Virus record (IMG/VR): IMGVR_UViG_3300011116_000282
Location: 1-25,357 of that record
From: a virus
Length of the DNA: 25,357 nt
Reading direction: 5' to 3' (one strand)
Each line of letters opens with the position of its first letter. Positions within the stretch are counted from its first letter, which is position 1. A program made the translations under genes and the position numbers. The notes under the pieces were generated by a model. The model had not been told where the DNA came from and searched no databases. It saw nothing but the letters and a program-made list of their open reading frames with translations. Positions 2,574 through 7,341 of the stretch are shown piece after piece.

Positions 2574-2600
2574 GTCGTGCTAATTAATTTGAAAGATAAA

Positions 2601-3113
2601 ATGATAGATATTCGACAGATCGAGAACTCAAGATCAGGTCGCTCGGTTGCAATCCTTGGCGGTGGGCCATCTCTTCTCAATGACATCTATCAGTTGCCAG
2701 AGGATGTAGACCTGATCGGGATCAATCAACACGCATTATTATTGCCATTAGATTTTGTGGTATTTCTCGATCATGCAATGTGGGAGTTAGTTAAGGATCA
2801 TCCATGCCTGAAGGTGTCGCATCATAAGATTGAGCATGAACGAATGGTGTGGTCTGGAATCTGTCCTGAGTATGGATTGTCAGGTGCAGCGGCACTTTGG
2901 ATTGCAGAGTTTTTAGGTTATAAAGAAATTATGGTTTGCGGTTTTGATTGTTATTCACAGAAACGTCGATATTGGCACTCTCCTGTGGATCAGAATTTCG
3001 AGGCTAATGCTTACCAGAATGATATACGGATTTGGGATTTGGTTCGGTCGCATCTGAAATATCCAGAACGAATCAAGTTTATGTCTGGGCCAATGATGGA
3101 GAAATGGCAATGA
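2601..3113 (+). CDS. MptE/DUF115-like nucleotide- or sugar-binding fold protein
   Basis: Residues about 15-28 carry VAILGGGPSL, a Rossmann-type glycine loop, followed by a strand-helix pattern and the segments DLIGINQH, DFVVFLDH and EIMVCGFDCY. This arrangement resembles the DUF115 / 6-hydroxymethylpterin pyrophosphokinase-like (MptE, motility accessory factor) family, of which short phage members occur near head genes. The start is taken at ATG 2601; a GTG at 2577 inside the terminator's downstream flank is less likely. The stop overlaps the next start as ATGA. The role in the phage is unknown; modification of a sugar or cofactor is possible but unproven. Confidence 0.7.
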   Translation: MIDIRQIENSRSGRSVAILGGGPSLLNDIYQLPEDVDLIGINQHALLLPLDFVVFLDHAMWELVKDHPCLKVSHHKIEHERMVWSGICPEYGLSGAAALWIAEFLGYKEIMVCGFDCYSQKRRYWHSPVDQNFEANAYQNDIRIWDLVRSHLKYPERIKFMSGPMMEKWQ

Positions 3114-4101: not shown

Positions 4102-4491
4102 ATGGCTAATCATACGGGTAGTGAAGGTGTTATTCATTCCGGCACGAATGTTGTTTCTGAGGTGCGTTCATGGACGCTTACAGAGACTGGAGATACCATC
4201 GAAGATAGCACGATGGGAGATTCATACCGTACCTACAAAGGTGGCATGAAGAGTTGGACAGGTTCTGTTGTAACTTATTGGGATGAGACTGACACAACTG
4301 GTCAGGGAACATTCACCATTGGTTCAAGCATTACGATTAAATTCTATGCTGAAGGATCGGCAACAGGGGACACTTATTATTATGGTTCAGCTTTGGTAAC
4401 GAGCGTTGAACGATCTGCTGCATTTGATGGCATGGTCGAGGCAACATATTCGTTCCAAGGAACTGGTACTCTTTCTGTTGGCACAGCTTAA
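4102..4491 (+). CDS. Major tail (tube) protein, first copy
   Basis: A 129-residue beta-rich protein of tail-tube type: TLTETGDTIEDSTMGDSYRT, GGMKSWTGSVV and the C-terminal FDGMVEATYSFQGTGTL are hallmarks of small tube proteins that stack as hexameric rings along the tape measure. AGGAG at 4091-4095 precedes the ATG. A close paralogue follows immediately (4504-4899), with about two thirds of residues identical by my hand alignment. The two copies differ mainly in the N-terminal 10-20 residues and in the loop after YWDETD. Which copy builds the tube, or whether both do, cannot be told from sequence. Confidence 0.85.
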   Translation: MANHTGSEGVIHSGTNVVSEVRSWTLTETGDTIEDSTMGDSYRTYKGGMKSWTGSVVTYWDETDTTGQGTFTIGSSITIKFYAEGSATGDTYYYGSALVTSVERSAAFDGMVEATYSFQGTGTLSVGTA

Positions 4492-4503
4492 GGATTATTT
4501 AAC

Positions 4504-4899
4504 ATGGCTAATCATACAGGTTCTGAAGGTATCGTTAAGATCGGCACATATACGATGGCAGAAGTTCGTTCGTATACACTGACTGAAACGGGTGATACGA
4601 TTGAAGATAGCACGATGGGTGATTCCTATCGTACTTACAAAGGTGGCATGAAAAGCTGGACTGGTTCAGTTGTATGCTATTGGGATGAGACGGATTCTGC
4701 ACAATCTGCATTGACGGTAGGTGCAAGTGTGACACTGAATCTTTATCCAGAAGGTAACACTGCTGGAACATCTGAGAAATATTTCACTGGTAGTGTCATT
4801 GTAACAAGCATCGAACGGTCAGCAGCATTTGATGGCATGGTCGAAGCTACATTCTCATTCCAAGGAAATAACACACTAACATTATCAACATTAGCTTAA
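4504..4899 (+). CDS. Major tail (tube) protein, second copy (paralogue)
   Basis: A 131-residue paralogue of the protein encoded just upstream, sharing the first nine residues, an uninterrupted block of 33 residues (about 25-57) and most of the last third. The differing loop after YWDETD is re-lengthened (SAQSALTVGASVTLNLYPEG). The DNA has diverged at many third positions while the protein is conserved, which suggests both copies are under selection rather than a fresh duplication. It is followed by the tail assembly chaperone gene, the normal order after a tube gene. Confidence 0.85.
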   Translation: MANHTGSEGIVKIGTYTMAEVRSYTLTETGDTIEDSTMGDSYRTYKGGMKSWTGSVVCYWDETDSAQSALTVGASVTLNLYPEGNTAGTSEKYFTGSVIVTSIERSAAFDGMVEATFSFQGNNTLTLSTLA

Positions 4900-4908
4900 A
4901 GGGCAGAT

Positions 4909-5247
4909 ATGACGAATATTCTTGAACGAGCGAAAGCACATTTCAAAAATCAATCGGTTACAAGAATTGAGGTTCCTGAATGGGGTGAAAATGGAGTTCC
5001 GTTGATTATCTATTCAACGCCATTTACTCTTGCTGAGAAGGACAGAATTTTCAAAGGTTCTCAGGAGCAATCTTTGAAGGTTTTAGTTGATTGCATTATT
5101 CTGAAGGCGAAGGATGAGAAGGGTGATCCTATCTTCACACTCGAACATAAACGAGATTTGATGAATAGCGTTTCACCTGATGTTATCGTTCGAATTTCAA
5201 ACGAGATGATTTCACAGCCTAACGTGGATGATCTCGTAAAAAACTAA
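4909..5247 (+). CDS. Tail assembly chaperone, short form (gpG-like)
   Basis: A 112-residue protein between the tube and tape-measure genes, the place of lambda G. It contains EVPEWGENGVPLIIYSTPFTL and a following helical part, typical of the first domain of tail chaperones. It ends at TAA 5245-5247 directly behind a slippery heptamer, so this is the product of ribosomes that do not shift frame. The chaperone coats the tape measure protein and recruits tube subunits during tail assembly; it is usually absent from the finished virion. AGGG stands a few nt before the ATG. Confidence 0.85.
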   Translation: MTNILERAKAHFKNQSVTRIEVPEWGENGVPLIIYSTPFTLAEKDRIFKGSQEQSLKVLVDCIILKAKDEKGDPIFTLEHKRDLMNSVSPDVIVRISNEMISQPNVDDLVKN

Positions 5248-5399
5248 AGACCGATCCCGATGCGTTTGCTGTCTACGCATTAGCGGATCGGTTACATAAA
5301 ACGGTTGCTGAGATTTTGGAAATGGAAGTTTCTGAGTTCTTGGGTTGGATAGCTTACTTGACGATCATTTCGGAGAAAACAGATGGCAGTCGGAAATGA
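4909..5399 (+). CDS. Tail assembly chaperone, frameshifted long form (gpGT-like)
   Basis: A -1 shift at A AAA AAC (5238-5244) joins residues 1-112 to a 51-codon extension read from 5244 to the TGA at 5397-5399, giving 163 residues. The extension begins LKTDPDAFAVYALADRL and continues EILEMEVSEFLGWIAYLTII, the form of the T domain of lambda G-T fusions (helical, with a W-x-A-Y motif). It has no start codon of its own and no stop codons, which strongly supports real coding. The extension overlaps the tape measure start (5383) by 17 nt. By analogy the T part binds the tube protein while the G part binds the tape measure. Confidence 0.85.
5238..5291 (+). promoter_or_regulatory. Programmed -1 ribosomal frameshift signal
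   Basis: The heptamer A AAA AAC (5238-5244) is a perfect X-XXY-YYZ slippery site in the zero frame and is followed directly by the stop TAA. After a 6-nt spacer (5245-5250) there is a two-tier stem: CCGATCC (5251-5257) with GGATCGG (5285-5291), and inside it ATGCG (5260-5264) with CGCAT (5276-5280) around an 11-nt loop. Spacing and structure fit a stimulatory stem-loop. Confidence 0.9.
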
Positions 5400-7341
5400 G
5401 ACGATCAATTATCGTATCACAGCACAAGACAACGCATCGGCTGTATTTCAAAAACTGCAAGGCACGATGTCTGGTATGTCAGTCATTGGTGCAAACTTTG
5501 GCAGAATAATTGGAGCATTGGGAGTTGGCTTGTCGCTACAACAAGCCGCTTCCGCTATGAAAAATCTAATCGACAAAGCTGACAGCTTCAAAGATATCAG
5601 TCAAAAAACTGGTGTAGCTGTTGAAACATTATCTCAATTTTCACAAGTGGCAGAAAATTCAGGTACTAGTTTGGATTCTGTTGCAATCGGGTTAAAAAAA
5701 TTATCATCAAACATGGTTCAAGCCTCTGCTGGCAATCGGGAAATGCTTGCTATTTTTGATGCTTTGAATGTTTCGTTCACTGACTCGCAGGGCAATCTCC
5801 GAGACACTGGCGATGTTATGATGGACATTGGAGATCGTTTTACAACGATGGAAGATGGGGCATTAAAATCTGCAACTGCTGTTAAGTTATTTGGAAAAGC
5901 TGGTTCTGATCTTGTTCCAATGTTGAATGAAGGTTCTGAAGGAGTTCGTGAATTTTCAGCAGTAGTTGATACTGATTTAGCAAATTCTGCTGATAAGTTT
6001 AATGAGAATATGAAAAAGATGCAGAACAGCATTGAAAAAGGATTCAATGCGTCATTGAAAGCTATTCTGCCTCTAATAAACGATTTCATCGATGCCCAAA
6101 GTAAAATGCAATCATTTGATGAGATCGTAATATCTGGTGTTCAAAGTGCGGCAGTAAAACAAAATGAAGAATTGTTATCTAAAATCAATAGCACAACTCA
6201 AGATTTAGAAGCAGCACAAGCAAGGCTGGTCGCTGCAAATGACGATGTTTCAAAAATGATGATTGGAACATCTGTAACGATATTGAAAGATTTGCTTGCT
6301 GGTTATCAATCCCAGTTAGAGGCATTGGATCAACAAGTTAAAAATCTTGGTGCATCAGCAGAAGCGGCTGGAATACAAATAAATGTAAGCAAAAATGTTC
6401 CAATTAACCCCGGACGAGGAATAGTTAATCCTCCGATGGTAAATCCAAAAAAACTTGCAGCGGCAGTTGGTGGTGGAACTGGTGGAACAGATGAACTTAA
6501 GAAGTTTCTTGAAGATCAAAAGGCATCTATTGAGTTGTTGAAACTCGAAGGCCAACAAGCCTCAATGACTGCTCTGGATTATAAACTTTTAACTGACCAG
6601 CAAAAATTCAAATCAGAACTTGATAAACTGTTGATCGGCAAATCAGGTGAAAAGGTTGATGCTTTCAGAGCAGAGGCAATAGCACTTGAGCAAACAAAGC
6701 TTGAACTGATTAAAGCTAATGCAGTTTACAAGCAATCCATTGAAGGCGGCTTCATGGAAGGTCTTGCCAAAATTCGTGAAAAGGCAATGGATGTTGGCGG
6801 TCAGATTTCCGATGCAATGCAGAACGCTTTTTCAGGAATGGAAGATGCACTTGTCAGCTTTGTAATGACAGGCAAAGCAGATTTCAAATCGCTTGCTAAC
6901 TCGATCATCTCCGATCTGATCCGAATTCAAATCCGCTCAATGCTTGGTGGAATGTTTGGAGGTGGCGGCTTCAATCTTGGCTCATTGTTTGGCATGGGTG
7001 GTGGTGGGCAATTTTCATTCGGTGCTGGCGGTTACACAGGCATGGGGCCATTCATGGCTAAAGGTGGCCCAGTCTCCGCTAATAGGCAATACATCGTCGG
7101 TGAGAAAGGGCCAGAACTGTTCATGCCCGGCAGTAGTGGTTCTATCGTGCCTAACAATGCTCTAGGTGGTAACTCAGGTGGCGTGACTATCAATCAGACA
7201 ATCAATATCTCTACAGGCGTTCAGCAGACAGTTCGTGCTGAGATTCAGCAGTTGTTGCCGCAAATCTCGAATGCCGCTAAGAATGCAGTTGTGGATGCAA
7301 AACGTCGAGGCGGTTCGTTCGCAATGGCATTCGGAGGCTGA
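5383..7341 (+). CDS. Tail tape measure protein (lambda gpH-like)
   Basis: A 652-residue protein. The first 60 residues are soluble and lead to a hydrophobic stretch around 40-60; the middle (about 200-450) is mostly helical and coiled-coil. Residues about 455-525 (from GFMEGLAKIREKAMD through FVMTGKADFKSLANSI) match the lambda-type tape measure C-terminal domain, followed by a Gly-rich region (about 520-565) and a conserved IVGEKGPELFMP motif near 570-580. Tape measure proteins set tail length; 652 residues would suggest a tail of about 100 nm by the usual 1.5 angstrom per residue rule. The start overlaps the frameshifted chaperone end. Confidence 0.92.
   Translation: MAVGNETINYRITAQDNASAVFQKLQGTMSGMSVIGANFGRIIGALGVGLSLQQAASAMKNLIDKADSFKDISQKTGVAVETLSQFSQVAENSGTSLDSVAIGLKKLSSNMVQASAGNREMLAIFDALNVSFTDSQGNLRDTGDVMMDIGDRFTTMEDGALKSATAVKLFGKAGSDLVPMLNEGSEGVREFSAVVDTDLANSADKFNENMKKMQNSIEKGFNASLKAILPLINDFIDAQSKMQSFDEIVISGVQSAAVKQNEELLSKINSTTQDLEAAQARLVAANDDVSKMMIGTSVTILKDLLAGYQSQLEALDQQVKNLGASAEAAGIQINVSKNVPINPGRGIVNPPMVNPKKLAAAVGGGTGGTDELKKFLEDQKASIELLKLEGQQASMTALDYKLLTDQQKFKSELDKLLIGKSGEKVDAFRAEAIALEQTKLELIKANAVYKQSIEGGFMEGLAKIREKAMDVGGQISDAMQNAFSGMEDALVSFVMTGKADFKSLANSIISDLIRIQIRSMLGGMFGGGGFNLGSLFGMGGGGQFSFGAGGYTGMGPFMAKGGPVSANRQYIVGEKGPELFMPGSSGSIVPNNALGGNSGGVTINQTINISTGVQQTVRAEIQQLLPQISNAAKNAVVDAKRRGGSFAMAFGG

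Follow-up and report, generated by a model that had tools for sequence, protein, structure and literature searches.

Does the gene that separates the tail tube and tape measure genes of this uncultured phage encode one tail protein or two? The locus lies in a stretch of 25,357 nucleotides (the window) comprising positions 1 to 25,357 of the IMG/VR record IMGVR_UViG_3300011116_000282, and a preliminary description had proposed that a -1 frameshift at this place yields a G-T pair of tail chaperones. The heptamer AAAAAAC at 5238-5244 lies in the X_XXY_YYZ phase of the open reading frame 4909-5247 and is immediately followed by TAA, as had been claimed (Table 1). The XXXYYYZ pattern is expected at a given position with P ~0.005, and among the 14 in-frame heptamers in the + strand genes of the window only that at 5238-5244 both touches a stop codon and leads into a long -1 frame. 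This frame is open from 5244 for 51 codons to TGA 5397-5399, with the upstream -1 stop just before 5232, and its end overlaps the tape measure ATG (5383) by 17 nt. It contains no ATG, GTG or TTG before 5316, and its only start codons (TTG 5316, ATG 5322, TTG 5340 and TTG 5358) all lie inside the conserved domain. The proposed 51-codon frame that lacks its own start and ends over the start of the tape measure gene is as described.

Table 1. Features of the putative frameshift locus and its neighbours, in coordinates of the window
Feature	Position	Strand	Basis
Tail tube protein gene, second of two tandem copies	4504..4899	+	Phage_tail_2 E 4.4e-5; PHROG 1407 major tail protein E 1.5e-14
G-like gene, tail assembly chaperone zero-frame product, 112 aa	4909..5247	+	PHROG 16513, fold match, gene order
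Slippery heptamer A_AAA_AAC, -1 shift site	5238..5244	+	In phase; kept among relatives
Zero-frame stop TAA, abutting the heptamer	5245..5247	+	
-1 frame extension (T-like), 51 codons and TGA 5397-5399	5244..5399	+	Conserved motif, PHROG 16513 score gain
Hairpin, likely 3' stimulator	5249..5293	+	Outer stem 5249-5257/5285-5293, inner stem, loop 5266-5274
Tape measure protein gene	5383..7341	+	Tape_meas_lam_C E 1.2e-23; overlapped by extension end

Relatives of G were gathered from viral contig scans, including single-protein scans, and from phage records, and together with the window they comprise 155 distinct versions, which are related sequences so that counts among them are not counts of independent events. 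In 154 of the 155 versions an in-frame slippery heptamer lies 0-3 nt ahead of the stop (directly before it in 148, one codon earlier in six), and the remaining version has only a doubtful candidate. AAAAAAC accounts for 143 versions, GGGAAAC for six, AAAAAAT for three and AAAAAAG for two. The zero-frame stop is TAA in 128, TGA in 15 and TAG in 12; this mixture at a fixed place implies that the position of the stop is kept while its identity varies. The -1 extension is present in every version in which it was measurable and spans 42-61 codons. The preliminary description had named homologues without both the heptamer and the downstream frame as evidence against a shift; a search for them found both in 154 of the 155 versions. 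In total, the site, the -1 frame and the observation as a whole are real, and it is their conservation that settles the matter.

Two variations within the family concern the slippery site itself. Cyanophage S-2L (L055), the most distant homologue and the one with the doubtful candidate, has no heptamer near the stop; its -1 frame is open and contains a related motif, and the shift may use another site or one further upstream. In L045, L046, L032, L033 and L036, Pelagibacter phages among them, the slippery site lies within a run of about nine A, and in such relatives transcriptional slippage could add to ribosomal slippage.

The extension carries a motif, L-x-x-D...LADRL.KT..EI......W.AY, that is common to the aligned relatives (30 sequences) and in which A, L and W are invariant, and the extension is conserved from its first post-shift codon on (L-[KR]-x-D). 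Among 16 aligned sequences the extension is free of stops only in the -1 frame, each other frame containing 2-8 stops, and substitutions by codon position number 1900/1329/2981, with the third position the most variable. Judged from these alignments, the substitution profile in the -1 frame is the pattern of a translated frame.

The zero-frame product and the extension also match a single protein family. The fusion of G with the extension matches the PHROG 16513 tail assembly chaperone with an E-value of 2.4e-17 and 64.5 bits (residues 2-156 to profile positions 4-159 of 160), G alone matches it with an E-value of 4e-8 and 34.5 bits, and PHROG 16513 is the best match of these two and of the extension by itself. 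A suggested relationship of the extension to DUF4035-type families gained no match in Pfam or NCBIfam: neither collection, including DUF4035 and lambda T, gave a relevant match above the curated cut-off for G, the extension or the fusion. Of all PDB entries, the AlphaFold model of G (pLDDT 80) best matches 2ob9, the HK97 tail assembly chaperone, with a Foldseek probability of 1.00 and an E-value of only 0.009; the two proteins share ~15% identity, which is below the reach of sequence families. 3fgx and YqbN (3klu) likewise rank in the first five PDB matches, with weak E-values. In BFVD the same model matches the tail assembly chaperone of RcRhea. A PDB sequence search of G and the extension returned as best matches designed repeat proteins over ~19 residues, which we judged irrelevant.

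The gene order is tail tube, G, tape measure. The tail tube gene is itself duplicated, the tandem genes 4102-4491 and 4504-4899 encoding strongly similar proteins with long identical stretches. Both copies occur in the relatives L002, L003, L007, L017, L021-L025, L027 and L031, and a single gene is found in the others, including cultured Pelagibacter, Roseobacter and Rhodobacter phages, some contigs being too short to tell. Further upstream, a 178-aa open reading frame (2577-3113) lies between the capsid and connector genes and by eye does not look structural.

Downstream of the stop, the region 5230-5330, whose folding the preliminary description had advised, contains a strong stem, with -29.3 kcal/mol and a z-score of -3.2 (1 of 200 dinucleotide shuffles was as stable). 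The proposed two-tier stem is present in that a nested stem is found; its outer helix had been understated, being 9 bp (5249-5257 with 5285-5293) and not 7 bp, and the inner helix encloses a loop of 9 nt and not 11 nt in the minimum-energy fold. Because a G-U and an A-U pair extend the perfect 7 bp from below, the spacer shortens to 4 nt; counting the perfect 7 bp alone, it is 6 nt. Just 5 of 6327 sliding windows along the contig are more stable than the 52-nt stretch after the stop, and this stretch beats 98% of shuffles that permute the same synonymous codons (36 of 2000 as stable).

In the wider clade of the window (23 distinct rows) the register of the outer stem is kept, and 87.4% of its cells are paired. 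Its covariation, 0.350, exceeds that of all 500 shuffles (mean 0.169) and of all slid versions (0.03 to 0.139). With the stop's first base numbered 0, the pair 6/46 is C-G, A-U, G-C or G-U and the pair 12/40 is C-G, A-U or U-A across this clade; at each of these pairs the base on the 3' side falls at the third position of an extension codon for Arg or Ala, and changes that restore pairing are therefore synonymous on that side. Among 151 relatives the fold z-score relative to same-codon shuffles has a median of -2.5, and 58% of them reach the 5% level or lower on their own. About half of the relatives have fewer than 7 of the 9 outer-stem positions paired in the register of the window. The outer stem is absent in other branches (the Pelagibacter phages, L028 and L032), and the hairpin is therefore an aid that many but not all members of the family have; in the window it is likely the 3' stimulator of the frameshift.

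The loop of the hairpin had also been thought able to find a pseudoknot partner. A search for complementarity between the loop and downstream sequence gave distant partners only, the best of which (5381-5389) begins 88 nt past the stem, and the loop sequence differs in the close relatives L002, L003 and L009. With its best partner so distant and its loop not kept by close relatives, a frameshift pseudoknot is not supported and was rejected, there being no conserved downstream partner. Purine tetramers within 20 nt upstream of the site occur in 114 of 147 relatives; because many of them stem from protein-coding Glu codons (GAGGAA) and the window has none, we do not claim a Shine-Dalgarno-like upstream stimulator.

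How, then, is the extra frame reached? A polymerase that adds or drops an A in the A-run could create the fused frame during transcription, and in 6 of 147 relatives an uninterrupted run of 8-9 A leads up to the final base of the heptamer, which is enough for polymerase slippage. We nevertheless consider transcriptional slippage very unlikely because the run in the window has six A only, because relatives with GGGAAAC have the same arrangement, and because a positioned, covarying hairpin makes sense for ribosomes and not for a polymerase. Alternatively, the downstream frame could be a small gene in its own right, translated from its own start or by re-initiation coupled to termination of G, and the annotation of phi3LM21 does treat this region as a separate short open reading frame. 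Separate initiation is contradicted by the absence of a start codon before 5316, which itself lies inside the conserved motif, and by conservation from the first post-shift codon onward; moreover, PHROG 16513 spans G and the extension as one protein, and we regard this option as extremely improbable. As to chance, in which an open frame would merely happen to follow an A-run, a frame open for at least 51 codons has by itself a chance probability of ~0.08; the retention of the arrangement throughout nearly all distinct versions already refutes such a coincidence, protein-type substitution in the -1 frame speaks against it as well, and its probability is negligible.

Thus, it is almost certain that a programmed -1 ribosomal frameshift yields two tail assembly chaperones from one mRNA, as first proposed, a reading that is supported by gene position, PHROG 16513, the predicted fold, the conserved heptamer and extension, and the covarying stem. 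What the sequences show is the site, the frame and their conservation, the hairpin with its covariation, the family and the predicted fold; that ribosomes do shift, how often they do so and how G and GT share the work is inferred. In this model, the majority of ribosomes would terminate at TAA 5245, the product being the 112-aa G form. The hairpin ~4-6 nt downstream would slow a minority, in which tRNA-Lys and tRNA-Asn would re-pair from AAA-AAC to AAA-AAA; these ribosomes would read Leu-Lys-Thr-Asp, continue into the 51-codon frame and complete a GT form of 163 aa. If the analogy to lambda holds, G would coat the tape measure protein and the T part would recruit tail tube subunits.

The heptamer itself is not the one favoured in Escherichia coli, in which A_AAA_AAC is much less slippery than A_AAA_AAG (PMC5009743), a point against the frameshift model; the host of the window may differ. 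A_AAA_AAC is a mammalian-type heptamer that also serves as the g-t heptamer of the haloarchaeal virus HCTV-2, and the lambda chaperone pair needs a ratio of ~30:1 (PMC5009743); a low efficiency of A_AAA_AAC would suit a chaperone pair with a need like that of lambda. GeneTack lists A_AAA_AAC among the heptamers found in prokaryotic genomes, and a phage tail chaperone assayed in that study shifted at 7% (PMC3711429). The distance from slippery site to stop averages 26 nt in the PRFect training set (PMC10885494), compared to which a stop that abuts the heptamer, as in ~95% of this family, is mildly unusual. The abutting stop could be an inherited habit or part of the signal. Its occurrence in ~95% of a diverse family suggests that, while a ribosome stands at the stop codon, slippage may compete with release factor, which would tie the GT:G ratio to termination efficiency; we hold this idea to be rather unlikely, and if true, the abutting stop would be the -1 counterpart of the prfB logic.

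The locus resembles lambda gpG/gpGT in the order tail tube - G/GT - tape measure, in a -1 shift near the end of G and in a C-terminal T domain, but differs in that the window proteins have no Pfam match to the lambda families and in that A_AAA_AAC abuts the stop. The slippery heptamer of lambda is G_GGA_AAG. Reportedly, Levin 1993 and Xu 2004 and 2013 deal with phage lambda gpG/gpGT, and Xu 2004 is said to be a source for frameshifted tail chaperones. The lambda pair is reviewed in PMC5009743, and frameshifted tail chaperones are textbook knowledge (PMC5009743; PRFect, PMC10885494). Closer to the window, the Rhodobacter phages RcCronus and RcRhea (NC_042049, NC_028954) encode a homologous G (29% identity) next to the tape measure gene, with a heptamer directly before the stop and a 45-46-residue extension, the whole gene being annotated as a frameshift-joined CDS; they differ in having GGGAAAC instead of AAAAAAC and in lacking a matching outer hairpin in the same register. 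The chaperones of Pelagibacter phages HTVC026P and HTVC202P and of the Roseobacter CRP-8xx phages have the same heptamer-stop arrangement and extension, whereas in their records the zero-frame product alone is annotated. The GT product is thus under-annotated, several public records having G alone. In phi3LM21 (L056), a short hypothetical protein is annotated over the -1 extension at 1893-2003, likely an error for the T part of the chaperone.

Accordingly, the lambda-type G/GT frameshift and its annotation as joined genes in the Rhodobacter relatives were already known; what is new is that this uncultured phage belongs to that kind and that the stop abuts the heptamer across the family. The finding adds to the known G/GT frameshift a large and mostly unannotated family of aquatic phages, cultured Pelagibacter and Roseobacter phages included, and provides a clean set for asking why a stop-adjacent A_AAA_AAC is preferred over the A_AAA_AAG favoured by E. 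coli.
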